Shown piece after piece: positions 11,705 to 64,000 of a stretch of 64,000 nt of DNA. The DNA comes from Thermothielavioides terrestris NRRL 8126 (taxonomy: Eukaryota > Ascomycota > Sordariomycetes > Sordariales > Chaetomiaceae). The stretch is taken from contig NC_016461.1 of the NCBI RefSeq assembly GCF_000226115.1, forward strand, positions 2,046,001 to 2,110,000, given 5' to 3'. The notes beneath the pieces are model-generated. The model ran no database searches. It saw only the letters and a list, made by a program, of their open reading frames with translations, and was not told the DNA's origin. Numbering within the stretch: the first letter of the stretch is position 1; each line of letters begins with the position of its first letter. Both the position numbers and the translations under genes were made by a program.

Positions 11705-14657
11705 GGTCGAGCCTCCGGCTCTGGCCTGCCAAATCCAGTAATCTATAAAGCTATTCCTAACACTACGTCTTTCCTAATCTAGCAATTCTATAGTGTTGAG
11801 GTCCCTCTACTATCGCCCTAGTCTACTGAGCTTTGTACGCCTACCCTTCTTAATCCTATATATTATATTATAAACCGAACCTTTTGTTTAGTTAGAGCTT
11901 TCTTCTAGCTCTATATTTCTTCTTTCTATATTGCCTAGTAGGTATAGATCTTAATAAGGGCCTAGATATCCGCTAGATTAAGCATTTCTATAAACTTCCT
12001 ATAGGGCCCTGGTTCTAGCACCTTTATTAGGCTATTGGCTAATATCTAGTTCGAGGATATATAATCTACGCTAACCCTCTTGTTCTAAGCTTCTTAGTAT
12101 AGCTAGTGGTTATAAATGTCGATATATTTTAGCTTTGTCTATAGTATAGGCATTTTAGCGTTGATTAGCTAGATCGTCTACTTATTATCGCACTAGATCG
12201 ATAGGATCTTGTTATCTAGATAGATCTCTAGTGCCTCTAATAGGTACTAAAGGAATATACCTTCTTTCGCTGCCTATATAAGTGCCAACAACTCTACTTC
12301 TATAGTCGATATAGTTACTGTATCTTGTTTATAGGCTTGCTAGGCGATTAGCCCTCTAAATAGTATAATGGTATAACCTTATAAGCTTTTATAATTGATA
12401 CTATTGTTAACAAAGCTAGTATCGCTAGCTACGATTAGGATGTCTCTTTCTCCTAGTTGGAGGGCCTAGAACCTTGTTTAATAGAGATATTATAATACTT
12501 AATTAGCTATATAGTAGTGTTCTAGTCCTAGGTTCTAATTGAACTACGTAAGCTTAGAGGCTATAAAGGCAATGTTTAGATGTATATTGACAGTAGTATA
12601 TAGGATTAAGCCGATCTTCCTTTAATAGAGCCTAGTAGAGCTATAGCTAGCAATATTATTATATAGAAGCAATTCGCCCTTAGCTATTAGAGTCTCTAGC
12701 TCTCTTTCTTCCTAGGCTAACCTTACGATCTTCTTAATATACGCTATCTAGCTAAGCTAAATCAAGTGCCTCTTATAGTTATAATAAATCTCTATACTTA
12801 GGAACTATAGAAGGTTATCTCCTTCTATAAGTTTGTACTTTTCTTATAGCTAGCTAATTACTTCGTTAGCTTAGTGTTGATCCTTCTTATAGTAGGCGAA
12901 GACGATGTTATCTATATAGAAGAAGATAATAATGCCTTTGTTCGTTATAATATAGGGCTCTTATAGTATAGCCTAGAACCTTAGGTTCTTTAGAGTGGCT
13001 ATTAGCTCTCGTTGCTAAAGGAGGGGAGACTTCTATAGGCTATAGAGTGCCTTCTTCAACTTTAGGATAGTTCCTAGCTTACGATAGCTATATAGCATCT
13101 CTATATAAATATCTTTATCGATCTTTGCATTGACGAAGGCATTGACTATATTGAACTGCTTTAGTTCTAGGTCGAACCTCGCTATAGTAGCGAACACTGT
13201 TTTAAAGGATTGTATAGCGAGTATAGCTATATAGTTCTCTTTGACGAACCTCTTCTTTTATTGATTGCTATATATTATAAGCCTCGCTTTATACTTAATA
13301 AGGTGCCTACTCTTATTAAACTTATAGACATATACCTATATATAATCTAGGATCTATTTGCCTTAAACCTCTTTGTTATAGTAGCAAATCTCTTCCTAGG
13401 AGCCTATTATTTTATAGCTTTAAAGATAATTGTATTCAGCTTTTAAGAATAGCTAGCTTAATAGGTAGTCCTTAAGTTCAGAGTGCTATCGAGGTATAGG
13501 TAAGAGTATCGACTAGTAGATAGATCTGAGCTTACTTTCTTGCTATAAGCGATCGACTTCTTCTCAAGAGATCCTCTTAGTACTACTGTCTTCCTTCTTA
13601 ATAGTATCGACTGCCTTCTTAGCCTTCTTTTTGCTCTTTTAGGTAAGTTCCTCTCTCTTTTCCTCTATATAGAGGACCCTCCTTAAGTGCCTACATTTAG
13701 TAGCTCTAGAGCCTAGTGTTCCTACGTTGAAGGCGGCCTCCTATAGCTAGAACGCTCCTTTAGAGGCTCTAGGCGAATGTAAGCCTAGGAAGGTAGCTGT
13801 AATTAGGGCATTTAGCGGAGTAGGCGGAGGAGTTGGATATTGGAACTCTAGGAAAGTGCTAGTAGTATCGCCTTTTACTACAATGGTATCTAATACTTCT
13901 TTAGTAGTAGCTAGGCTCTCTTCTAATTCTTCGAAGGTTGTTAAAGGTATATTGAACGCCTTTGTTGTATCCTCTTCCTTAGCTATAGGCGTAAGATCGC
14001 TATTATCTAGCTAATCGGCATTATTAGCGCCTTTGGCATTAAGCTAGCACTTTAGCTCTTCAAGGTCTATCTAAGGAATATCTTATACTATAAGCTTTAG
14101 ATCGCTTAGGTATATCTACTTTTTATCAAAGATTATATCGTATATATATATCACTTAGTTAGTAGCTAGGTTCTAAATGTAGTAGATATTTAAGAAATTG
14201 TATTCTATAAGGTAGCCGATCTAAGCTCTTAGTCGGAACTGTTCAAAGCGCCTTTCTTTCTTCTTAGTAGCATCTGTTATAGCGAATGCCTTATAACTAT
14301 AAACCTTCAAATGCCCTTAGTACGGCTTATACTCTAAGGCTCTTAGGCTATCTCTCTTAGCGAAGAAGGTATAAAAGCGATCTAACGGCGTTATCTACTC
14401 TATTGTCAAGGATAGTATCCTGTTATAGAGATATATCGCGGCTCTAATAACCTTTGGCTACAGTTGCCCTAGCAACTATATACTAATAGCCATTGTTCTA
14501 GCCTTCTCTTTGATTATACCCCCTAAGCGTTTAGCGCCTCTGTTCTATATAGGCGTATTAGGCGTTGAAGGCTCTATTTAGATACTTTGTCTCTTTGCCT
14601 AGGTAGTAATAGCGCTCGCCTATATAAATTCGTTGTTATATTCTAAGACTTTGATAT
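11705..14657 (-). pseudogene. Copia pol, 3' part (integrase end, reverse transcriptase, RNase H)
   Basis: Minus-strand frames, broken by many TAG/TAA codons. They read the end of the integrase core (VLEYNNEF just beside the gypsy insertion, then GYLIEYNFLNIY), then reverse transcriptase: VYVYKFNKSRHLIKYKARL, the ELKQFNIVNAFVNAKID stretch, LKLKKALYSL and the active-site block FFYIDNIVFAY. The active site (12907–12918) is Tyr-Ile-Asp-Asn where copia elements have Tyr-Val-Asp-Asp, so one catalytic Asp is lost. The integrase Asp before Asn-Glu-Phe also reads Asn. Both changes are G-to-A transitions, consistent with RIP. RNase H should follow toward 11.7 kb but is too decayed to delimit. Confidence 0.9.
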
Positions 14658-14917
14658 TATAACGTACTAGCCTTATAGCGTCTATAGATAAGCGTACGAT
14701 GTTCTATTCAACTACCTTAAGGAGAGAAAAGGAGAAGTACAGGCTACGGTTCTCGTATATAGAGTTTTCAGGGGCTCGCGTATAGGGGGCTCGGGCCGAT
14801 GTTATTCTAGGCGCGAGGCGGGTCTGCCTCAGGCCCGTAGCGAGCCTGTTATAGGACCGCTATAGATCCTAGGCGTAGTCCTATATACCTAGCCCAGGTA
14901 TAGCCCAGTCTATAATA
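14658..14917 (-). repeat. Left LTR of the gypsy element (3' LTR in element sense)
   Basis: 260 bp, starts TATAACGTAC and ends TATAATA on the plus strand. RIP has altered the canonical TG/CA ends; the right copy still ends CCGTAACA. Confidence 0.95.
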
Positions 14918-14932
14918 TACCCCCCCCTTCCT
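14918..14932 (-). other. Polypurine tract of the gypsy element
   Basis: On the sense strand it reads GGAAGGGGGGGGTA directly before the 3' LTR. It fixes the orientation as minus. Confidence 0.8.
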
Positions 14933-15732
14933 AGATAGGGAGCTGGTTTAGGGCATACGTAGTATAGCGCTAGGTATGGATCTAGCGTAGCGTAGGGTCG
15001 ATTATAGCGAACGCCAATGTCCAACCCAGTATTTAGGTAGCTTAGTACTACTGCCTATAATCCTACTACCTAGCTGTAGGTTGTTTGTTTACCTTGCTTT
15101 TATAGGATACTAATTAGCCCTTTCCTCGCCCTACGCTCTTCTTCGTAGTAGCTACATTGTATAAGGCGTACCTACTAATCAAATGCGATAGACCCCCTAC
15201 CTATTGCTAATAAAACCTCTCCCCTTATACGAACTTGCTCTCTACGTTCTCTTCTCATTTCTAATATACGTCCTCTCTCTACTTCTACAACTTTATCTTC
15301 CTTCTATTTATATATCGACATTTCTCTCTTTATCTTACTTTATATACGTTCCTCGTTTATTACGCTTCTATCCTATATATATCTTCTGCCCTTTACGTTT
15401 TTTCTCGCCTTTTACTTACTCCGTCGAACATTCATCTTATACGTTGTTGGCCTCTTCTTATATAAGCTATATAATTGTCCAACGTCTATACTTCTATTGT
15501 ATTGGCCCTATCGTCGTTATTATATATCTAACTACTTTACTAACTATATTTACTACATTTCTATTTTACGCCTAACTTGTCCTATAATCCTTCCTCTTTA
15601 TACTCGCTTAGTCCCCTAGCCGCCTCCTCTATATATATAGCTCGTATATATTTCATTTACTCGCTTTGCCCTCTATAGTAGCTTCCTATTTCCTTTGCGA
15701 TTCCGATATATTCCTAAGACTTATCTACTATA

Positions 15733-16836
15733 ATGTTGGTAGTAGTCGCTTCTCTCGAAGATAGTAGTAAAGGACGTTGTTCTAAAGGGGACGACAACTA
15801 AGATTATAATATACATTACTTTATATCAAGCCTACTCTAGCCCTAGACTAGAAGCTAATAGCGTCCTAGATAGAACTATAATAACTATAGCAACTTCTTT
15901 TATTATACTATTAGTAGCTATATTATAGAGGGAGATTCTAACGATAAGGATAACGCCCTCCTAGAGGAGGAGAGAGACGTCTACCTCAATTGCATTGAGT
16001 AGCTTCTTCGTAGTAACTTAGTAGATTACATTCAAAGCTAAGGAGAAAGCTACTTAGAATATACTAAAGCCTATACTAAGTACTATTAGGATCTAGCACT
16101 TTAAGCGACGAACGCCTCTCTATACACTAGTCTAAAATACTTAGTTAAGTTTTATACTAATAACTAAGCTATCGTCGAGCCTACCTAGAAGAAGACTAAG
16201 ACTAAGCTAGCCTATTATACCATCTTAACGCTATAATTTAGCACTTTTATATATAGCTTCTATAACGTAATTAGTATAGCCCTATAGTATTAGTCTCTAA
16301 TATACTTTGCCTTTGTACCTAATATGCTTCTAGCCCCTCCTTTATCTTCTTTGACCCTAGGCTAACGAAGAGCCCTAGTTCTATACTAGGCTCCTTAGGA
16401 CAACCTCGCTATATAGCATTATAGTCGCCTAGTTAAATATATAGTATAATATCTCGATTTCTCCTAGCGAGAGAATCAGTATATCGTAGAAGCTATTTAC
16501 ACTATAGTATAGTCTTAGGCAACTGTCCTAGAGACGAATTTACATTTCGTAGACTATATTATCGCGCTTACTACCCCTTTGCCTATCTATACCTCTTAGG
16601 GGTCCTACCCCTACCACTCTCCCTATATACGTTCCCCCGCCTATAACCTATACTACGGTCGACGCCCTTCCTCCCTAGTAGAGGATGTACTATACGTCTA
16701 TCAAGTATATATATAGCCCTCGCCTTAGACCCCTTACGTCGCTGCTCTACCCCCTTGTACGCTTACTCTACCTATATACCTGTTCGAAGATAAGAAAGAG
16801 ATTACCGACGTAGGTCCTGTTATAGACCTTAAATAA
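15733..16836 (+). pseudogene. Candidate antisense accessory ORF inside the gypsy element
   Basis: In one plus-strand frame, from ATG 15733 to about 16836 (about 368 codons), roughly 26 in-frame stops occur. All are TAG or TAA, which is what RIP makes from CAG/CAA (Gln) or TGG. Between the stops the reading is protein-like: an acidic stretch (GDSNDKDNALLEEERDVY), a probably helical region (LLRSNLVDYI) and a KKTKTK cluster. It lies downstream of the chromodomain and opposite to gag-pol. RIPed non-coding DNA is itself rich in TAG, and a minus-strand frame over the same bases is also fairly open. So this is a candidate only, and I recognise no domain. Confidence 0.35.
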
Positions 16837-17039
16837 GTGACGCCACTAGTATATCCTATTGTTTTTTTATATATAGTTCTGTTTTATCTAGGTTTAGGAG
16901 GATAACTAGACTTAGATGTATTATAGTTTTCCTACACCTATATAGTTGTATTTGTCTAAATAGCTAATCTTTATAGAGTAGTCTATATACGAATATAACG
17001 TTTCCCTTTCCTTCTCTAGTTCGATATTGGCCTATTATT

Positions 17040-20000
17040 GTATTATACGTCTCCCTACTTCTATTTAAACTTATTGAGTATAGTAGTCTTTAGAAAGTTC
17101 TTTAAAGGCTCCTACATTGGTTTGTTGTAATCTACCTACTTAATATATACGTCGTAGTTGTTCCTTCTCCCTTTTATATTCTAAACTTTAAAGATCGTCT
17201 CTACCCTATATTCCTATTAGGGAACACCCTCCTCCGATATAACCTATATAAGGTCTAGTCTCTTATTTATAACTTTCTACGAAGGGAGTAGGTTGGAAGC
17301 TACTTATTTAACTAAGTTAATATAGAAGGTTAGATATAGACCGCTTAGTACGTTGAGCGTCACTATTAGCAAGGTCGGTACTACAACTACTTTATACTTA
17401 GTATTTAGCTAGTCGAGCTTCTTACTAAAGCGGTTTATCTTTATATTATATAGAGAGAGCTATATCTCGTCCTCTACCTAGAACCTCTTAGCTAGGTAGC
17501 GAGAGCGGTTTATATTCGTTTACTACTACTACTATATATATACGATAGCTACTTAGGTCTACTCTATCCCCTCCTTTAAGTAACGGAGGAACCTAGCAAC
17601 GCAACCTTCTAGAGATACTACGAACGTTATTAGGATCGTAATAAGCTATATAGGGCTTATATCGAACCTATAGAGGAGGTAGTTCGAGTTTACTCTAGTT
17701 ATAGATAAGTCCCTATTGTTAAATATAAACTAGTAGGCTAGAAGATGTTTAGGCTAGTCGTACTATATAAAGGAGACGAAGATCTAGAGGATTACCTATA
17801 CCTCTTAGTTAATGTTACACGCCGATGGTGCTCGGTGACCATCTAGCGGTAAACGTGTGAGGGTGAGAAAGATCAATGCCTCTCAGCCTCGTCAGCTGAT
17901 GAGGCGGCACTCCTGAACACTAGTATGTGTCACAAAAGTATGTTGATGCAGTCTGTCTTCCTACGAAGGGGTTCCGGGTGAGGTTCCTTTTTTTAAGGGA
18001 ACGCTCGTCACCCCTGACCGCGGTGCGGTCATGGGTGCCCTTGCCACAGTTGCGTGTGATAGTTAACCCGCTCTATCCCTCTATTCGTCTAAGGATAGTA
18101 AAAAGTCGATAAGAGCTACTCTACCCCTACCGCCTTATACAATACGGTCTAGAACCTACTTAGCTAGTCCGATCTATAGTTGGTTATAATTTAGGTTAGG
18201 AACCTATAGAAACGCTACTATACGTTATAGAATCGAAGGGTATATTCTTCTACTCCTATCGAGTACATTGCCTCGAGCTATATATACTTAGAGAGACAGT
18301 TAGTGATTACTATAAAGTAGCTAGGCGCTCCCTCGTCTTTTATAGGAAGGTCGGTTATAAAGTTAATAGAGATCTATTTCTAAAAACGATTAGGGACGAG
18401 CAAAGGCTATAAAAGCCCTTGACGTAGTTATTAGAAGATCTTACTCCGATAGTACTGATTATAGTTCCTAATGAACTACTTTACATTGGACAATATAAGG
18501 TCCTAGTAATAATCTCTCCAAAGTATTTTAAATAGCCTATTACGCCCTAGGTGTCCTAATATAGCTAAGTTATAAATCCGCTAGATGATCGTAGTAGTTA
18601 AAGGCTCCTATATAGGGAGCTAGAGACGGCTATAGAACTAAAGTATACCTTATATATTAAGGAAGTAGTCCGCGATCTAGGTCTATACTATATTTATCTT
18701 CTTAGGAAACTTCTAAGCTCTATTATAGACGGCTTAGAGCTAGTGAGTGTAGTACTCGTCTTCGGCAATACCTTCGTTCTATAGGGTAGCGAGCTACTTG
18801 TCTTCAAAGAGCATTTCTCCTATAGATAGCCTAGCCTCCTCCTATACGCTAGTCTAATATACCTTGATCAAGGGAAGTAGCTAGGCGATACACTAGCTAT
18901 CTTCAAGCTCATCCTATTTATACTAGGAGAGTATATTAAAGCGTAAAGCCTAGGATCCTAGCCGATACTTTAGCTCGAAGTTAAACAAGGAGAATATCTC
19001 TATCTATTTAGCCTATCGTTCGCTAATCGGATATAGCTAAGTGAAGTACTTAAGATTCTTATAGTCGATTAGGATAGTAAAGGGGGCTACTATACTTCGA
19101 AGCTTCGCTAACTAGGCCTTGAGGTATAAGATAATAGCTAATAGCTCTTTATCGTAGATAGTATAGTTACGTTCAATAGAGCTTAGTTTTATAGAGTAGT
19201 AGGCTATAGGGTAAAGAACCCTATCCTCCTCCTACTAAGATAAGTATCTGCTAAGTGCTATACTAAAATAGTCTACTTCTATGATCGTCTCCCTCTTAGG
19301 ATTCTACTAGGCGAGGATTAGCTCTAATATAAATATAGCCTTAAGTATATCGAAGGCCTCCTATTCCTCCTTACCCTAGTGGAATAGGATATTTTTATAG
19401 ATAAAACGTATTAATAAAGCTACTTTCTTAGAGAAGTTAAAGATAAAGTTGTAATAAAAGTTAACGAACCTAAGGAAGCTCTATACTCCTTAGACTCTAT
19501 AAGGTACCTCCTACTCGTAGATAGCCTTAATCTTCTTAGGGTCGGGGTAGATATAGACTCTTGTCTCTACAATATACCCTAGGTATTTAACTTCCTTTAC
19601 TATAAATATATACTTCTTAAAGTCTAGGTTAAAGCCTATATCCCTTAGCCTCTAAAGGACTTTGCGTACCTTCCTTATATAGTCCTTCTAGCTCCTACTT
19701 AAGTATACTAAGATATTGTCAAAGTATACCGTTATATAGTCCCTTAGCGTTAGGCCAAGGGTATTATTAATATATCTCTAGAACGTTATAAAAGTACTTA
19801 TAAGCCCAAAGGGGTAGACTAGCTACTCGAATAGCCTAAACCTTATACGAAACGCTATAAAGTACTTATCCCCCTCGGCTATCCGAATACAATAGAAGGC
19901 AACTCTAACGTCTAGCTTCGTAAGCTATTTAGCCTTAGCTAGGGACTAGAGAGTCTCCTTAATCAAGGGGAGTAGATACTAGTCCTACTTAGTAATCTTA

Positions 20001-22100
20001 TTTAAAGCCTAGTAATCTATATAGAACCTCTATCCCCTTCTTAGCTTTTTTATAAAGAGGACTAGGGCGACCACTAATAAGGAGCTTACTTAGATCTATC
20101 CTTTATCTATTAGGTCTACAACCTACTTTCGAATCTCTAGGAGGTAGTCCCTTAGTATATTGTATAAAAGTCCTTATAGGAGCTTAGGAAGTTTCCTATC
20201 TAGGCTCGTCTTAAGATAGATATAATAGTTAGCCTCCCCTCGATAGGGAAGTAGATCGTTCGCCTTTTCCTTGTCGAAGAGGTTAGCAAAGTCTTATAGC
20301 TCCTTCGATAAAGCGATCTTTGGGTCTAGGTCGGCGTTGGGCTAGGAGACGGCTACCCCTAGTATAGTAGTTATCTTATAGATATTAATGACGAGGAACG
20401 TGTCTTAGGCTCTTTTAGACTTCTTTTTTTATACTCTATAAGCTAAGCCTATAAATACTACGCCTATAATTAGAGTAGTATTAGTTTCTTTCTATTATAA
20501 AGAGTATTCGTATACCTATAGGCCACTTTATAAATTAACGATAAGGACCCTATTGGCTAGGTCTAGTACAATCCTACAATAGTTTATTTAAAGAAGCTCT
20601 AGAATAACGTTGTAGGCTAGTCCTAAGACTATATAGAATATAGTAGTACTAATCTACTTATCGATATCTATTACGACCTAGGCGATATATATAATTTTCT
20701 TTATAATTTATACCCCTTTGACTACAACGCCCAAAGTATAGGGAGTTGGCAAGCTTATTTACTTGATCTCTAACTGCTAATATACTTTTTTACTAATAGC
20801 TCTATAGCTCTAGTACCTACTATCCATTTATATATTTATAAAACTAGAGGAGTTTAGGAAAACAGAGATTAGAAAGGGTAGCTTATCTATTCTTTCTCTA
20901 ATCTCTACAAACTTATTCTATAAGCGGCTAAGTCCTTTTAGCCCCTATACAAGACTTTGTATAGGGGCTACTCTTTTCCCTTCTCCTCCTTAGAGGAGGA
21001 GTCCTCCTCTATCTATTCCTTAGCCTCTAGCTTATTAATGTCGACCTAAAGAGCTAGTCTCTTAGCTAGAGCAAAGGGACAGGTAGCTACGAAGTAACCT
21101 TAGCGCCTATAATAGATATAGGCTTCGGCCTATTGACGTACTATATATACTTCGTTGCTTATCTACTTCGCCTATAGTATATTTGTACCTTGCTTTCCTC
21201 TATTCTACTACTACTTTCCTCTATAGCCTCTATTAGCTTCTCCCTAGGCGAAGGCAATATAGGCTACGTTAATTTCGGTTATCGATATATCTCTGTCTAT
21301 ATCCTTCTCTATATCTACGTTGGGCTTAGGTCGCTTGCCTTAGGATCGCTAATGTCATTCCTCTAAGCGGAAAGCCTCTAGGTCGATAGCGATCTTATAG
21401 TACCTTGTAATAGCTATAGTATAGTCGTTCTATAAAACCCCCTATCCTATTGCAATATACTTCAACTTTAGGAAGAGGTATCGTTGTAGTCTAATAAATT
21501 GTACTTCGTTGCTCTAATTGAGTCCTCTAGCCTTCGATAGCTTCGCTTTAAAGTGAATAAAGAAGGAGGAGAATAGCTCGTTATCTCCTTAGCGGAGTAT
21601 ATCTAGCTTCGTTAAGGCTATAACCTACTTATAGGGGTCTATATAAATGGTCGTAAAGTACTTAAGGAACGCTCCTAGGTTATAATTATAGTAGGGCCCT
21701 CTCAACTTATAGAAGGCTACGACCTTAGCTTAAACTCCTTAGCTAAAGTTCCTCTAAATGAACACCTACTAGTCGTAGGGGCCTCCAATAAAGTCCTAGT
21801 CTACTATTAGGATATATACTATCGTAGCCCTCTAGGCGACAAAGAGTTCCTTCTTACCGTCGAAGGGTTGTTCTACAGGGAGGCGCTTCTACTATGTCCT
21901 AGAAGCTATTGGAGCCACGACGTCAATCGTCGAAGCTAGGGTATAGGCCATTGTAGAAGCGTTTATAGTCTAAGCTATAGCGATCTAAGCTATATAGAGT
22001 TCCTTGATAGTTGTATTCTACTATATAATCGTTTTCTATAAGACTTAGAAATGTTTATAGACCTAGTCTAGGTCTAGAACCTATAGGACGTTTAGGTTGT
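17040..22100 (-). pseudogene. Gypsy gag-pol with C-terminal chromodomain, RIP-inactivated
   Basis: Reading leftward on the minus strand: Gag ending in a zinc-knuckle-like GYFVATCPF (near 21.1 kb); reverse transcriptase near 19.5–20.1 kb with TVYFDNILVYL; RNase H start with SFLRFVNFYYNFI and HWGKEE; integrase near 17.3–18.6 kb with GLLQPLLVP and ISINFITDLP; and a chromodomain near 17.05–17.2 kb (VETIFKV, KGRRNNYDVYIK, then EPLKNFLKT). The reverse transcriptase dyad at 19715–19726 is Phe-Asp-Asn rather than Phe-Asp-Asp. The integrase core (codon 18362–18364) reads Asn where the family has Asp. Many Gln/Trp codons are now stops. It is not translatable. Chromodomains in this family usually guide integration toward heterochromatin. 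Confidence 0.9.
17814..18059. mobile_element. Short inverted-repeat element (MITE-like), not RIPed
   Basis: 246 bp with ordinary base composition set in TpA-rich RIPed sequence. Ends are near inverted repeats (TTACACGC against TCACACGC on the opposite strand). They are flanked by TAGTTAAT (17806–17813) and TAGTTAAC (18060–18067), an 8-bp duplication with one transition. An 8-bp duplication and short inverted ends fit a hAT-type non-autonomous element. Inside are small palindromes (TGACCGCGGTGCGGTCA at 18015–18031; GGTTCC and GGGAAC around a T7 run). There is no coding capacity. Its length is below the roughly 400 bp usually needed for RIP, or it arrived after RIP. Confidence 0.75.
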
Positions 22101-22188
22101 TTATAGTAGCGTCCGGTCCGCTCAGTACTAACGTCGAAACGCCTAGTATACTACTTTCGTCTACGCCTAGAAGCAACAACTGCTCTAT

Positions 22189-22208
22189 CTACCTAAAGGT
22201 AGTTGAAC
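22189..22208 (-). other. Primer-binding site of the gypsy element, self-priming type
   Basis: Immediately inside the 5' LTR (element sense) the sequence is GTTCAACTACCTTTAGG. The LTR itself carries AAGGTAGTTGAA in sense orientation (plus 22260–22271), a perfect 12-nt complement. A PBS complementary to the element's own LTR transcript is the arrangement of the Tf1/sushi self-priming group. No tRNA 3' end complement (starting TGG) is seen. Confidence 0.65.
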
Positions 22209-22468
22209 TATAACGTACTAGCCTTATAGCGTTTATAGATAAGCGTACGATGTTCTATTCAACTACCTTAAGGAGAGAAAAGGAGAAGTATAGGCTATGG
22301 TTCTCGTACGTAGAGTTTTCAGAGGCTCGTGTGTAGGGGGCTTGGGCCGATGTTATTCTGGGCGCGAGGCGGGTCCGCCTCGGGCCTATAGCGGGCCCGT
22401 CATAGGACCACTGTGGATCCTAGGCGTAGCCCTATATACCCAGCCCGGGTATAGCCCGGTCCGTAACA
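22209..22468 (-). repeat. Right LTR of the gypsy element (5' LTR in element sense)
   Basis: 260 bp, ends CCGTAACA on the plus strand (TGTTACGG in element sense). It is much less RIPed than the left copy; for example GGGTCCGCCTCGGGCC and CAGCCCGGGTATAGCCCGG are preserved. As the 5' LTR it would hold the element's promoter. Confidence 0.95.
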
Positions 22469-25076
22469 GATATATAGCTAATACTGCCTTTCTAGTAGTG
22501 TAGCAAGGTGTTTAATAGCTACTAAGATGCCTAGCGCCTCGTAGTTGTATAGATAGTAGTCCTATATTATATTTGAATAGCGATCTATCGCTAATAACAG
22601 ATGTTTAAAACGTTGTTGGCTCTCTTAGAAAGGGTATAGATCTAGGGCGATCTTGTCGCCTAGGCTGTAATTCAATGGTCTAGGAATGCAATTAGGCCTA
22701 TATTTTAACTTGCTAAGGCTATAGCTATTATACTCGAACGTTGATACGCCTTTAATACGCCCTCCTTATAAGTAATTAACGAAGTGTTCAAGGGCTTTTA
22801 GGCCTATATAGCTGAGCTATAGGTACTAAGTTATAGCATTTGCTATATTCTCTATACAACGAGCCTAACAATCGAGTCTCTTCGTTTAGGTAGCAAAGGC
22901 TATAGGCGTATAGTCTTTGGGTATATATTTAAGGATATATTATTAGAGCTTCTTTGTAATATATCTGAGAAGCGTATAATTTTAGCGCCTAAATAGGTAG
23001 TTTAGCGTACTCTCTAGCCTATTGTTCTACTAAATCCCTTGTTAATTAAGCTGCTCTAACGACACAATGTTATATATAAAGGTTAGATAGTAAGCTATAT
23101 TGTATAGTATAAGGACTATAATGCCTTCGTTGTTCTATAGTTTAATATCTATCTCGTTATATCCTTTAATCTAAATAGGGTACTCGCCTACCTAGATATA
23201 GTCATTAAGCGTAGTCAACTTAGGAGGCCTTTTGAACTTACTTAGATAGTTGGCGATATAAATAGTTGACCCTAAATCTAGGATTACTAAGTTGATTAAG
23301 GGATATCTCTAGCCTATTTGGAATATAGCTAGGATTATAGCAAAGCTCACTATATATTTGCCTATAGCTCTCTATTACTATATTCTCATAATATACTAGT
23401 AGCTAAATATCGCTATAATATTGGTGCCTATATTAGGGGCGATACCTACTTTAAAGGCGTTACCCTCTTCCTAGGTAGTGCTCTCTTTAAGAGCAATGCC
23501 CTCTTTAAGAGCATTGACATCTGCTATATCTACTTTAGGGACCTTAGGCTCCTTCGTCGAGAGTGTAGCTATAGCTCTTTTAGAGCGATTAGCTAGTTAA
23601 TATAGTAGTGGATCTTCACCTATATCGCTCTTTGTGTCGTTAGCGAGGCTACTCCTAGACCTCTTTATCCAAAGCCTGTTAGCCTTTGTTTATAGAGTTG
23701 AATTAGCCTTTAAGTTAGCTTCTATACAAGCTTTAACGTATTCTCTAAGTTCCTACCTAGGCGGTATACTCTTAGAGTTTAAGTAGTAGTACCGCTTAGT
23801 TAGATAGAAGTGATTATAGATATAGCACTTCTTTAATATACTTAAGGACCTTGTAGAGGTGTTAGAAGCTATAGGCGTGCTTAGCTTATATTTAAAGTGG
23901 GATTAGCCGATTCTAGCTCTCTCTTTATAACTAGCTTAGCGCCTAGGGCGATCCTCCTAATCTTCTAGTTGCTTAAAGTCCTTATTTTCTTTCTCTCTAG
24001 GGCTATATATTAGGAAGGATCCTTTCCTTATATAGTTAGACGCCTTCTCAAGGAATAGATATATACCTTTATAGACTTTTATAGCTATATTTCGAAAGGT
24101 TAGCTTCTTAAGGATCTCTATCTTATTTATAGTATAGAGGGAAATAAAGCTTAGGAATAGCTTCTCTAATATAGCTATTAGTTCGTTGAACTATAGGCTA
24201 AGATCCTTTACTTCGCTTATCTTCTAGAGGGAGGCCTTATCTATTAGATTCTCCTACTTAACGAGCCACCTCTTGAAATTAGCCTCCTTAATATATATAT
24301 TCCTAGGGTATTTAAGTATATCGAGGTAGGTATAAATGTATATTCGAAGCTCTATTATTATTTTAATAGTTAGCTAAACAATCTTTTTAAGATTGTTGTA
24401 CTATATTCAAAAGTTAGCTTACTCTATAAAGTAGGTAGACCAGTAGTTGGCCACTACTATAGTAATTATAAAGGTTAGTATCTAGGTAAGGTAATTGGTC
24501 TAGCGTTTATAGTCCTTATACTTATAGTCTAGATCCTTCTTAACCTATATAATAACGATAGCAATATTGTTGTTAAACTACTTCTCCCTCTCGTTATAGA
24601 GCTTCCTCTAGTAGCTATTCAGTACCTCGATATTAGGCTGCTCTTATAGACCCTCGTTCTTAGAGAGGGTCTAGGAATCTATATCGTTATCCTAGGCTAT
24701 AAAGGCAGTGCTAGGCCGCTACTCGCCTATAGCAGGCGCCCCTAGATCGGCTAGAGCTCCTATAGCTATAGCTAGCGTAGAAGCCTATAGTTCGACGATA
24801 TATTCCTAGAGCTTACGTCGGATACGTTTATAGGCGAGATTATAGATATTAGCTAGTATAGGCTTTAGGAGAAGCTTCGCCTTGCCTTCGAAATAGTCAA
24901 GTAGATCGAGATGCTTAGCCTTATTAACGAACTCGCGGTTCTAAGCTACCTAGTTATCTAGGCTAGTTAGGATAATATCGATCTTTATATTAGCTTTTAA
25001 AGATATAGTAGTTGCTACTAAACGCTATATATAGGGCTATATACTTAGAGATTGGACTAGGTTTTCAAGCTAATGA
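22469..25076 (-). pseudogene. Copia gag, protease and integrase start, RIP-inactivated
   Basis: Minus-strand reading, interrupted by TAG/TAA. A Gag-like region lies at about 24–25 kb. A Cys/His segment (CYICNHFYLTKRYYY, near 23.8 kb) probably derives from the zinc knuckle. The protease segment VILDLGSTIYIANYL (catalytic triad at 23270–23278) reads Asp-Leu-Gly instead of Asp-Ser/Thr-Gly. Next come an LEQLNQQGI-type stretch and the integrase start (DLYPFQESQQRF, LLAIDRYSN), cut by the gypsy insertion at 22469. The frame resumes at 14657. Confidence 0.88.
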
Positions 25077-59597: not shown

Positions 59598-62498
59598 ATT
59601 TGGCTACCTGCAGCGGCTGCTGGCTTCTTGTAAATTCCTTGGACTGCCAGCTCGCACAACTAGGGAAAAGGTGGGTGATGTGTCGCTGGACACGTTGCAA
59701 GGGGGTAGGGCTTGCGGCCACTTCCCCTCTGACGGCTTGACCTGCAAGACCTGCGTCAAGCAGTGCCTCTCCGCGTGCCAGGCCTCCTCTCACTGGCTAC
59801 CCTGCCCCGATCTTCAGGCTGTGGCAAGGAAGGCCCGGGGGTCTGACGCAAGGTGTGGGGTGGAGGTAGTGAGCAGGGCTGCAAACAATGACAAGCCGGC
59901 CAGAACTGGGAGCGCGAGCCCAAAGCAGTATCGTGGGGTGAGCCGCACCAGTGGGTGCGTGGGTGCGTGGGGTACAAGGGGGTGTGGAATGGGGGACTGG
60001 GCCGCAGTACCCTAGTCAAGGAGCGTGTCTCGCTGTGCCCGCTGGATCGGGTGGCTCAGGGCTGCCTCGCCGTTACCGCAAGCAAAATGCGCAGGCCGGT
60101 CCCAAGGCCTGAGCAGTAGCTCGTCCGATCGACCGACCAGCTGTGCTCCGCGCCGTCCGGGCTCAACTGCGAGCGTGGTGTCTCTCTGTGGTATCGTGTC
60201 GCGGTTACACCGGCATGCGATGCGATTGCCGGTTGGCTGGGTGCGGTCGGCACCGGGCAGGAAGGCCTCGACTTGCGGCGACAGGAGATTGGTTGTGCTG
60301 CCACGGCCTTGATTGCGTACCTCGCGGGGATATCTGCAGAGTCGCGTCAGAAGCCGGTGCACCTACGGGGGCGTTTAGGTAGGAATGGAAGTTTGCCAAG
60401 TGCGGTGTCTGCGTGACAATGGGAGCACGCAGAGCCCAGCAGGTGGTGCGGTCCCGCTACGGGCGACGCGATGGGCTGCGATGGGCCGCGGTGCCATGGC
60501 ACGCGCAGATGGCTAGCGGACGCACCTTGCTCGCTCGTACCAGTGACTGCCGCTCCGGGTCAATAAATGGGGGATGCCTTGTCGCAATCGGTCGCAGTCT
60601 TCCCTGCACTAGCTTGGATGCTGCGGGCGCTCCGAGTGGGTGTTGTCTGAGTTGGCCGCGAACCTAGCGGCGACTTGGGTCTGCGATGCACGGAAAACTG
60701 GGATGCAAGAGGGCTGCAGCGCGCGTGGGGTTGTTGCGGTGGGAAGAATGGCCGGGGATTTCGGGGGGAAAGAGGAATGCCCGCGGGCGGAGTGGGTCCG
60801 GCCTTGATCCCAGCGATCAGCACCTTCAAGGTGCCCCTGCCATAACAAGCTTGGCGATTACCTTACTTCCCCTGGTCAACATCAGCACTTCGGGTAACAA
60901 ACTTCCATACAGGGACTCAAACTCAAAGTGTGGTAAGCCGAGTATCAACCTAGGTACTTCTTGCGCTCCTCTCAACACTTTTGCCAAACGCCGACCAAGC
61001 TTTAGTTGTTTCTGCTAAGCTCGGATTATCACAATCCTTGTTTTGTTTGAGACAAACTGCTGGAGACTCCAGCCTCCGACTGAATCTATGCAGGGAGGTG
61101 GGAGGGATTGGACGCCGTAAAGTGAAGGAGCATGAGAGAGGGGGTCTCCGCAGCGAACCTGCATTTCCATCCCAGAGGACTCTGATGCTCCATCGACAGT
61201 TCAGAGCCAAGGCAGGAATGGTGTGGGAAAAGAGCTCGAAGAGGCTAACTACCTGCCTGGCTGCACTGTACACTCTTGGCCTCCATGTCGTCCCGTCAAG
61301 AGCGGTGAATGCACAGCCCAGACCTTGCCGGGGGTGATGAACGGTCTCAGTTGAGGGAGGAGTGGAGCTTGCGAAAATCCTCAATTTTCAGCACACATCC
61401 CGTGGCTGCTGCGAGAACAAAGTGAATACGTCGGGCCTGGTTGTGATGAAGTCGTAGCCTCGAGGCGCTACGGATGTCTTGGCGGCCGGTGGAGGGGCCA
61501 AGGATGGTGGGCGAGGCGGCTGAATGATTCGACAATTGCGGTCGCGAGTAAATATGCAGGCAGGAACAGGAAGTGCCTAACGGGTCCAGAGAACGGGTCT
61601 CGGGTCGAATGGCTGGGGTCGAATGGCTGAGATTTCTCCGTTTGGTCGCTTAAGCTGCGCAGCAGGTAGGCGTGTGACCAGGGAGACGGGATTCTGGGGA
61701 CGCCTGCTGGGTGGTGGTAATTCACGAGGTTTGAACCAATAACAGAATTTTGGGCTGTTTCGAGAATCTCACTGGGCGAAAAAGGACCGTTGAATTCCAA
61801 AATCTGAGGTCTCAACGTTCTCACAATCACCTTGCCAAGGCCCGTACCCAGCTTTGAGGAGGGATCTTCAGCAGGTCAACGAGCCTATTTCCCAGACGAA
61901 GCCAGTTTCATGGGTTCCCTTCGGCACAACCGGACGGAACGAAGTTGACCAGTATGGGGGGGGACACTATGTCACTCTGCTCAAACTCCATGGAGCAAGC
62001 CAACCAACCCCGCCTGAGTTAGACACAGGATGCCCAATCCCGTCGCAGCCCAACCATGTGGCTGGCTCTCCCTGTTGGGCATCGCAACAGGCTAGTGCAT
62101 GCCGCTAGGCTGCAGAAGAAGACGACTGTACAACTCAGCATCCCTTCAGGACAAGAAAACGCAGAAGTTTGTGCAGCTTCTGAGGATCGCGCCAGCCTCT
62201 CCGTTTTGCTCTTGCTGGCAATCATTTTCCCGTGCTGGACCGCTTGGACAGTGGAGGCTTCCAGTCCTACCACCAAGTCAGGGGGTGGCAGGGCCGGGGC
62301 ATCAAGGCGCCCGCCAGCGCGTGGGGTGTCGTCAGTCAGAAATGTGCCTTTTCTGCCGCCCAATGTGCACAAGCAAGTTGACGGCACCCCGGGAGTCTGC
62401 TGATGGACGGAGCATGGACGGCATGGCATGGCATGGCACGGCTTGGGATCTGGCGTGGCTTTTCGAACCCTTGTCCCCAGTGCGCAAGGTTCTTCTTT
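59598..62498. other. 2.9-kb interval upstream of HAP3, no gene recognised
   Basis: Short open frames on both strands lack domains and splice logic. It holds the HAP3 promoter at its left end and the 3' flank of the prefoldin gene at its right. A GGCATGGCATGGCATGGCAC pentanucleotide repeat lies near 62419–62440. Confidence 0.45.
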
Positions 62499-63140
62499 TC
62501 ATGATTGCACAACCTGGACGTTGTTCTTCTTCTGCAACGGAAGTCAGAACCGGAAGGATGACAACACCGGCAAGACGGCCCTGCGCGTACCTTCCACTTG
62601 TCAAGCTCATCTTGCTTGGCCTTGTATTGCTTGACCAGGTCATCGAGAACCTTCTTTAGCCCCTCGGCATTCGTGCGGAGGGCGGGGATGACATCCTTCA
62701 CCGTCCTCTCCACCAGAACACCATTGATCATGCGGAAGCACTTGCGGTCACCCGGGAGCGGCTCCAAGGTCTCGAGAACAAGCCTGCCGGCGCGGTTAGC
62801 GATGAGCGATGAGCGGTGAGAAAAGCGGGATGGAGCGGTGTGATGAAAGCCGAGTGTGATGAAAGCCGAGGTAAGCCAGGGACAGTTGCCCAGAAAAAAA
62901 AAAAAAAAGGCTCGGCCCCGGTTTGGTAGAATCGATGAAAAGAATTCCTTACTTGTGCTCTTCAGCTTCTTGTTCGACATCGCCTATCTTCTGCGCCAGC
63001 TGTTGCAGTGTGTTTTTGTAGTTGGTGTACTGCAACTGGAGGTCTGCCAAACGAGTCAGTGGCTGCTCCGGTCTCGATCGCTGGGTGCCCACAAAGATCT
63101 CACCCTGCTGCCTCTTGGCCGGTGCCGTTTGGGATGCCAT
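62499..63140 (-). CDS. pfd2: Prefoldin subunit 2 (GIM4/PFD2)
   Basis: Exons 63140–63104, 63043–62953, 62783–62591 and 62531–62499, all GT–AG and in phase, 117 residues. It is one β-type subunit of the hexameric prefoldin that delivers actin and tubulin to the CCT chaperonin. The N-terminal coiled coil reads LQLQYTNYKNTLQQLAQKIG and DVEQEAEEHK. The β-hairpin core is LVLETLEPLPGDRKCFRMIN and GVLVERTVKDVIPAL. The C-terminal coil is GLKKVLDDLVKQYKAKQDEL, ending KKNNVQVVQS. The first intron is in frame, so an unspliced reading adds about 20 spurious residues; the conserved QQ-D-L-Q junction argues for splicing. Confidence 0.95.
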
Positions 63141-63386
63141 GGTCGGTTTGACAAGCGCCGAACGAAGCTTTTGGATGTCCGCTCAGAACACGGACTATCT
63201 GATGTCGTTCGCGATGAGGGAGGTGGAACAAGTTGAAACCAGTCAGGGCCGCTAACAAGATGACTGTGGCCCTTGAGGGTCAACGCGGCCAATGGCCAAT
63301 CCACTCCACACGCATTGTAAAATGACGGAGGTGGTCCAAGCTTCCGGCCCGTCCCCCTCGGCTCCTGAGTTGAAATGGGGTTATTC

Positions 63387-63771
63387 TTAAAGAGGTCCCG
63401 CCAAGACTAATTTCGCCTACCGCTTACAAGTATTTACAAATTGCCGCGAGGGAGCGGGGTCGCCACGACTTCGAGCAACATCAACAACGAAGAATTGCAA
63501 AGACTCGTAGCAACAACTTTGCGAAACCTCAACCAAATTGAAAAAAAAGAAAACGAAGTTAACCCATACCCTAACCTTGACCCTCACCCTAACCATAACC
63601 CTCACCCTAACCAGCGGGGGGCTGGCGCCGCCCCCCGCACCCCCGGCGAACTAACCCGTGGCTAACCCGTGGCGATAGTGTAAACCCCTTGGCGGTCTTG
63701 GCGGGGTACTGACGCTGTAAAAACATTGCCGACAATTGGCCGAAATTAGTCTTGGCGGGACCTCTTTAAGA
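63387..63771. mobile_element. 385-bp inverted-repeat element (MITE-like)
   Basis: Perfect 30-bp terminal inverted repeats at 63387–63416 and 63742–63771; the left one begins CTTAAAGAGGTCCCGCC. The outermost bases include TTAA on both sides (63388–63391 and 63767–63770). A TTAA or TA target duplication would then fit a piggyBac-like or Tc1/mariner-like origin; I cannot decide which. The interior has no transposase. It carries degenerate telomere-type repeats (63561–63613), a GC hairpin (GCGGGGGG and CCCCCCGC arms, 63614–63638) and a duplicated CTAACCCGTGG. It ends 10 bp before the ATG of the next gene. Confidence 0.85.
63561..63613. repeat. Degenerate telomere-like CCCTAA repeats
   Basis: CCCTAACC occurs three times, mixed with ACCATAACC and TTGACCCTCA variants. 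All are near-copies of CCCTAA, the complement of the TTAGGG fungal telomere unit. It lies inside the 385-bp inverted-repeat element, not at a chromosome end. Confidence 0.7.
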
Positions 63772-63781
63772 TCCAGCTGAA

Positions 63782-64000
63782 ATGGCCCGATTTTCGGCAA
63801 GCTCGCGACTGCCACGCCTGGCCCTTTCTCAACCTCACCGGCCGATCCACATCCGCAATGCACCCCCTATTGCATACGAAGGACAATGCGGGTCAGTGAC
63901 TCCCTTTCAACCTAGACGGATATCGCACTCATGTCTCGGGCATCTCCTAACACCTTCACCTTCTGCTTCCAGGCTGCGAGCAGGTGATGCTTGCGCTCGA
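63782..64000 (+). CDS. N-terminus of a probable mitochondrial protein (partial)
   Basis: Exon 1 at 63782–63891 reads MARFSASSRLPRLALSQPHR, then PIHIRNAPPIAYEGQCG. It has a GTCAGT donor, and a TTCCAG acceptor at 63967–63972 keeps the frame into a second exon (GLRAGDACAR) that runs off the window. The Arg/Ser/Leu-rich, acid-free first 25 residues are typical of a mitochondrial targeting sequence. I cannot name the protein from this fragment. The inverted-repeat element ends just upstream, so its promoter or 5' UTR must run through that element. Confidence 0.6.
   Translation, partial: MARFSASSRLPRLALSQPHRPIHIRNAPPIAYEGQCGSVTPFQPRRISHSCLGHLLTPSPSASRLRAGDACAR

Follow-up and report, generated by a model that had tools for sequence, protein, structure and literature searches.

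Miniature inverted-repeat transposable elements (MITEs) are short (below about 600 bp), non-coding and multicopy, with inverted-repeat ends, and a non-autonomous element need not carry its own transposase. Mutator (MULE) transposons make target-site duplications of 8–11 bp, usually 9 bp. In fungi, a MITE family with 8–9 bp duplications is described in Mycosphaerella graminicola (PMC4522978), and the same source mentions telomere-associated Penelope-like elements that end in TTAGGG. The short MITEs of Zymoseptoria tritici are described as less affected by repeat-induced point mutation (RIP) and as lying near genes, and the likely escape of short MITEs from RIP is thus already published (PMC9970103). 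The titles and abstract openings listed from the open-licence PMC literature included neither a MITE of Thermothielavioides terrestris nor a MITE with telomere-like repeats.

The element studied here lies in a 64,000-bp stretch of the T. terrestris NRRL 8126 genome (contig C5, positions 2046001–2110000, hereafter the window), and was compared with the whole assembly (36,912,256 bp, 6 contigs). It is real, mobile and ordinary in kind, a Mutator-type MITE, once its ends, its duplication and its neighbours are corrected. A first-pass annotation had described a 385-bp element with perfect 30-bp terminal inverted repeats (TIRs). The inverted repeat is indeed perfect, and is 31 bp long, but the limits did not stand. 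When 23 copies were compared, duplications were found to begin only outside two octets, GGTTATTC on the left and GATCCAGC on the right, both of which are exact in 20 of the 23 copies of one compared set. Since these octets are shared by the copies but are not perfectly inverted, the element ends shift outward to 63379–63777 (Table 1). The duplication that flanks it, the 8-bp TGAAATGG, is neither of the TA and TTAA types that the annotation had proposed to check. None of the listed ORFs of at least 100 aa in the window overlaps the element, and the region 63300–63860 gave 0 Rfam matches at gathering scores. A length of 399 bp, 31-bp perfect inverted arms, no listed ORF, many copies and a target-site duplication are the features of a MITE.

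Table 1. Positions of the features discussed. Coordinates are those of the window unless another locus is given.
Feature	Position	Strand	Remarks
Whole element: Mutator-type MITE, GGTTATTC/GATCCAGC subfamily	63379..63777	+	399 bp; limits from other copies and duplications
Left target-site duplication TGAAATGG	63371..63378	.	contains ATG 63375-63377
Left terminal octet GGTTATTC	63379..63386	+	comparison of copies
Left arm, perfect 31-bp inverted repeat	63385..63415	+	28-bp core 63387-63414
Telomere-like array, three 18-bp units rich in CCCTAACC	63559..63612	+	
GC-rich hairpin, 9-bp perfect stem GCGGGGGGC/GCCCCCCGC, 7-nt loop	63614..63638	+	read from sequence
Right arm, perfect 31-bp inverted repeat	63741..63771	-	28-bp core 63742-63769
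Right terminal octet GATCCAGC	63770..63777	+	comparison of copies
Right target-site duplication TGAAATGG	63778..63785	.	contains ATG 63782-63784
CMC2-like (COX assembly, Cmc1 family) gene	63858..64000	+	start codon 63858; intron 63892-63972; runs beyond window
Prefoldin-subunit gene	62336..63140	-	start codon 63140; first intron about 62784-62952; 3' end of model uncertain
Tandem array of four MITE relatives	L038:4175-5737, contig C1		396-bp period

The search for other copies proposed in the first-pass annotation returned at least 42 full-length places at 88–100% identity, the window copy included (385-bp query; 40 of 493 candidates scored). With the 28-bp TIR core, 1,051 genome matches were obtained at up to 3 mismatches (530 forward and 521 reverse; 0 for the reversed-pattern control), which suggests roughly 500 elements. 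The octet GGTTATTC joined to 13 bp of TIR gave 81 matches at up to 1 mismatch, 57 of them exact, and another end, GGTCGTCG, gave 254 at the same tolerance; both controls gave 0. Exact duplications at fixed ends were present in 37 of 53 paired copies (27 of 8 bp, 9 of 9 bp and 1 of 10 bp; window copy included), a sample that includes four tandem copies and two composites over 500 bp; 16 pairs had no exact duplication in the fixed register. In the set of 23 copies the duplications were 8 bp (13 copies), 9 bp (7), 10 bp (1) or imperfect (2). The TIR-core matches and the exact duplications support the annotated mobile inverted-repeat element and, together with the full-length places, led us to reject a non-mobile conserved sequence. 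Nested or closely adjoining MITE copies were also seen (L022, L026, L054, C4:3472316-3473170 and C2:2769090-2769868).

Among the sampled copies, two sets of five and one pair are identical throughout the element and lie at separate loci, and the movement is therefore recent. The recent insertion proposed earlier holds on this ground but not on the one given for it, the perfect TIRs: divergent copies carry perfect TIRs too, and this clock was dropped. TIR conservation is moreover inflated here, the copies having been selected by their TIRs. At 20 of 21 young-copy loci, GC content reached at least 0.5 in the outer 280 bp of both flanks; these loci are accordingly not AT-rich mutated islands.

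The window copy would have inserted in the promoter region between two divergent, ordinary housekeeping genes, one for a prefoldin subunit and one for a CMC2-like protein. The CMC2-like protein (80 aa, two exons) matches PF08583 with an E value of 5.9e-17, in an alignment that starts from residue 1, and all 4 relatives inspected, out of 111 found, begin with MHP. Its closest relatives are 85–86% identical, with sources that include Madurella fahalii, Corynascus similis and Thermothelomyces fergusii, and the name CMC2 is taken from the source names of relatives, e.g. 'COX assembly protein 2'; no PDB match was obtained at E ≤ 0.001. In the prefoldin gene, PF01920 was matched at E 4e-15 by the unjoined second exon (62336–62980, minus strand), the exon join having been made by eye, and exon 1 scanned alone gave no Pfam match. 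The element ends 80 bp before the CMC2 start codon, and by arithmetic the two genes were about 310 bp apart before the insertion. The start codon that the first-pass annotation had seen beside the element is not that of this gene: the ATG at 63782–63784 belongs to the duplication, has a twin at 63375, and lies 76 nt upstream of the CMC2 start in another frame. Being inside the target-site duplication, this ATG is older than the insertion.

The superfamily was approached through long partner elements. Unpaired TIRs led to two elements of about 6 kb, L073 (501–6510) and L074 (501–6448), which carry the TIR core at both ends (0–2 mismatches), are flanked by the 8-bp duplications GTCCAAGA and CAAACTGG, and are 84% identical over 5.5 kb. 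The L073 DNA aligned with 10 of the 18 genomic loci matching PF10551 (MULE), at 83–89% over about 1.1–3.2 kb (alignments under 300 bp were dropped), and four of these ten, L061–L064, are above the PF10551 cut-off. No alignment was found for the other eight, including L055–L060, which are above the Pfam cut-off and have the highest domain scores. Ends were fetched for seven of the ten aligned loci, and the TIR core was present at 12 of 14 ends with at most 2 non-RIP mismatches, L086 and L087 being without it. Three exact 8-bp duplications, TTCTTTTC, CAAATGCC and GAAGGGAC, were found among these seven loci; L077/78 and L083/84 have both ends without a duplication, and two others are without one end. 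In all nine long elements, then, five have an exact 8-bp duplication, two have both ends without one and two are without one end. In a first scan of the MULE loci, over about 1.5 kb per side, a single locus of the 18 had shown the core, and that as a poor match, because the ends lie further out.

Two octet pairs of the long elements, GGTCGTCG/CGTCTACC and GGTTATGG/CCATCAGC, were found again in MITE subfamilies. None of the long elements found has exactly the two octets of the window copy; in L074 one end reads GATCTAGC. Six-frame translations with stops read as X were matched to MULE loci; the matches listed include all six frames of L073 and one or more of L074. The domain PF21056 (RNaseH-like, ZSWIM1-3) gave six matches in the genome, three of them above cut-off (loci of L061, L066 and L068) and four at loci of this MULE group. 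A six-frame Pfam search of L073 and L074 themselves detected no MULE domain and only PF21056, at E 0.024 and 0.1; with Pfam support this weak, the superfamily call rests on the relatives (L061–L064 for the one domain; L061, L066 and L068 for the other). The ends of the MITE are thus shared with MULE-domain elements, and its duplications have lengths known for Mutator, 8 bp being commoner than 9 bp. We consider it very probable that the element is a MITE, that is a non-autonomous cut-and-paste DNA transposon, of the Mutator superfamily.

Two other superfamilies were weighed against this assignment. An origin as a hAT MITE would agree with the commonest duplication length, 8 bp in 27 of 37 exact cases, since hAT elements make 8-bp duplications, and the genome has six hAT-dimerisation places. 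The TIR core was however at none of these six, whether up to 5 substitutions were allowed or up to 6 with RIP-type changes free, over flanks of about 1.5 kb per side that were as short as in the first MULE scan; moreover, 10 of the 37 duplications are 9–10 bp long, and it is with MULE loci that the long elements sharing these TIRs align. We rejected the hAT origin on the result at the six loci and hold it to be extremely improbable. The six hAT-dimerisation relics (L029–L034) all carry stops. Duplications of 8–9 bp are also typical of Merlin (IS1016-like) elements, with which the mixture of 8- and 9-bp duplications would be consistent, but PF12762 (IS1595 DDE) had 0 genome matches at E ≤ 1 and the long partners match MULE loci. 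A Merlin origin was rejected for want of any such DDE match, and its probability is practically negligible.

No intact DDE transposase was found among the places detected with either domain: stop codons, mostly TAG and TAA, interrupt every one of the 18 PF10551 and 6 PF21056 places. Among 7,995 candidate proteins scored against a read-through of L067, none was related at E ≤ 0.001. A MULE transposase would have acted in trans on the ends that long and short elements share. The MITE interior matches L073 and L074 in the TIRs only, and descent of the MITE from elements of this type by simple internal deletion, as judged from sequence, is not shown. Identical copies in a genome in which every detected MULE is broken would be easily explained if other strains harbour an intact source or if domain searches missed one; the source may also have been lost. 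In L075 (501–832 and beyond), a nearly complete reversed MITE is continuous from its position 48 with over 9 kb of AT-rich sequence, and represents either a MITE cut short or another type of long element.

The long elements are heavily damaged in the manner of RIP, with TpA/ApT ratios of 1.92 in L073 and 2.10 in L074 against 0.61 in the flank of L073. RIP would then have wrecked the long coding copies and mostly spared copies of about 400 bp, presumably because their length is near or below the RIP recognition length. Among the 22 close copies of the young subfamily (the best BLAST matches), 25 substitution sites were counted against the majority base, several of the changes being inherited by groups of copies: 21 were C>T/G>A, 4 were T>C/A>G and none was a transversion. 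The C>T/G>A sites lie in CpA (9), CpG (10), CpC (1) and CpT (1) contexts, a pattern that we read as light RIP or methylation decay.

The tandem array of four relatives in L038 lends itself to a comparison bearing on the RIP length rule. Its copies have C>T at 75 of 120 CpA sites (62.5%). The proportion is 14.1% (91 of 645) among 22 dispersed copies that do not belong to the young subfamily and 4.0% (39 of 975) among 25 that do. The tandem arrangement is a likely cause of this heavy mutation, although not an isolated one, since the four copies share changes and a solitary neighbour copy, L038_3655, is also strongly mutated (40 C>T/G>A). In the window itself, positions 12000–25000 form an AT-rich island with a GC content of 0.34–0.41 per kb against 0.51–0.71 elsewhere, and one listed ORF of at least 100 aa lies wholly inside it; the island likely consists of RIP-degraded transposons.

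The telomere-like repeats and the GC hairpin reported in the first-pass annotation are both present (Table 1). Of the 54 array positions, 46 agree with (TAACCC)n in the consensus of the young subfamily, to which the window copy belongs, where 40 first-order Markov resamples reached at most 28, and 41 do so in the consensus of the other copies (resample maximum 30). The array was found in register in 51 of 51 aligned copies, with a length of 54 nt in 46, 55 in three, 53 in one and 52 in one. It therefore predates the divergence of the sampled subfamilies. Read on the opposite strand, the array agrees with a loose G-quadruplex pattern that allows loops of up to 12 nt.

Captured telomere sequence, as proposed earlier, would explain why the hexamer is shared with the genome's own telomere repeat, which is TTAGGG (TTAGGG/CCCTAA) at all 6 contig ends read, of 12. 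However, the period is 18 bp and not 6 bp, none of 153 units has TAACCC as its middle hexamer, the differences being not only C>T, and the array was in place before the sampled subfamilies diverged. We therefore regard capture as unlikely, and the proposal found no support. Variant units such as CTAAGTAACCC adjoin the TTAGGG telomere arrays at L091, L093, L094 and L096.

The annotation had also suggested binding sites that aid the element. In this reading a telomere-repeat-binding Myb factor of the Tbf1/TRF type would dock on the array and aid transposition, keep the copy open or alter promoters. The agreement with (TAACCC)n beyond all resamples, the almost constant length and the more telomere-like array of the young subfamily speak for it. 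Conservation speaks against it: in 26 diverse copies the array had a mean pairwise identity of 0.793, below the hairpin (0.818) and the remaining interior regions with which it was compared (0.850 and 0.869), and only 7 of 276 interior 54-bp windows fell below it. The TIRs of the same copies reached 0.971, and the right terminal octet, at 0.775, was below the array. The array is thus among the least conserved interior stretches, and its middle hexamer is never TAACCC. Such a function is very unlikely, and binding sites in aid of the element found no support. Hardly to be credited is the larger scenario in which the family spreads factor-binding arrays to some 500 interstitial sites, open or insulated chromatin favouring promoters and a further escape from defence. 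The array looks like an old, ancestral internal repeat of 3 × 18 bp, carried as incidental cargo with no demonstrated role.

Together, these results settle the locus as a copy of a transposon and give the right ends, family and gene neighbours for it. They also offer a compact case in which genome defence destroys the coding copies of a transposon and its short passengers persist; the most interesting point is that identical copies persist where every detected MULE is broken. MULE-derived MITEs are alike in their long TIRs, 8–10 bp duplications, non-coding interior and ends shared with MULE-domain elements. The present family differs from them in that no intact MULE was found in the genome, and in an interior with a 3 × 18-bp telomere-like array and a GC hairpin. 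The Penelope-like elements, as far as they are described in PMC4522978, share the presence of telomeric hexamers inside a transposable element, but they are retroelements of chromosome ends that carry the telomere repeats at their 3' terminus, whereas this is an interstitial DNA element with internal repeats. The M. graminicola MITE of the same source is also fungal and, as described there, has duplications of similar lengths. The MITEs of Z. tritici, a different fungus, are alike, in the account given in PMC9970103, in the explanation of their survival by short length, in their recent bursts and in their proximity to genes.
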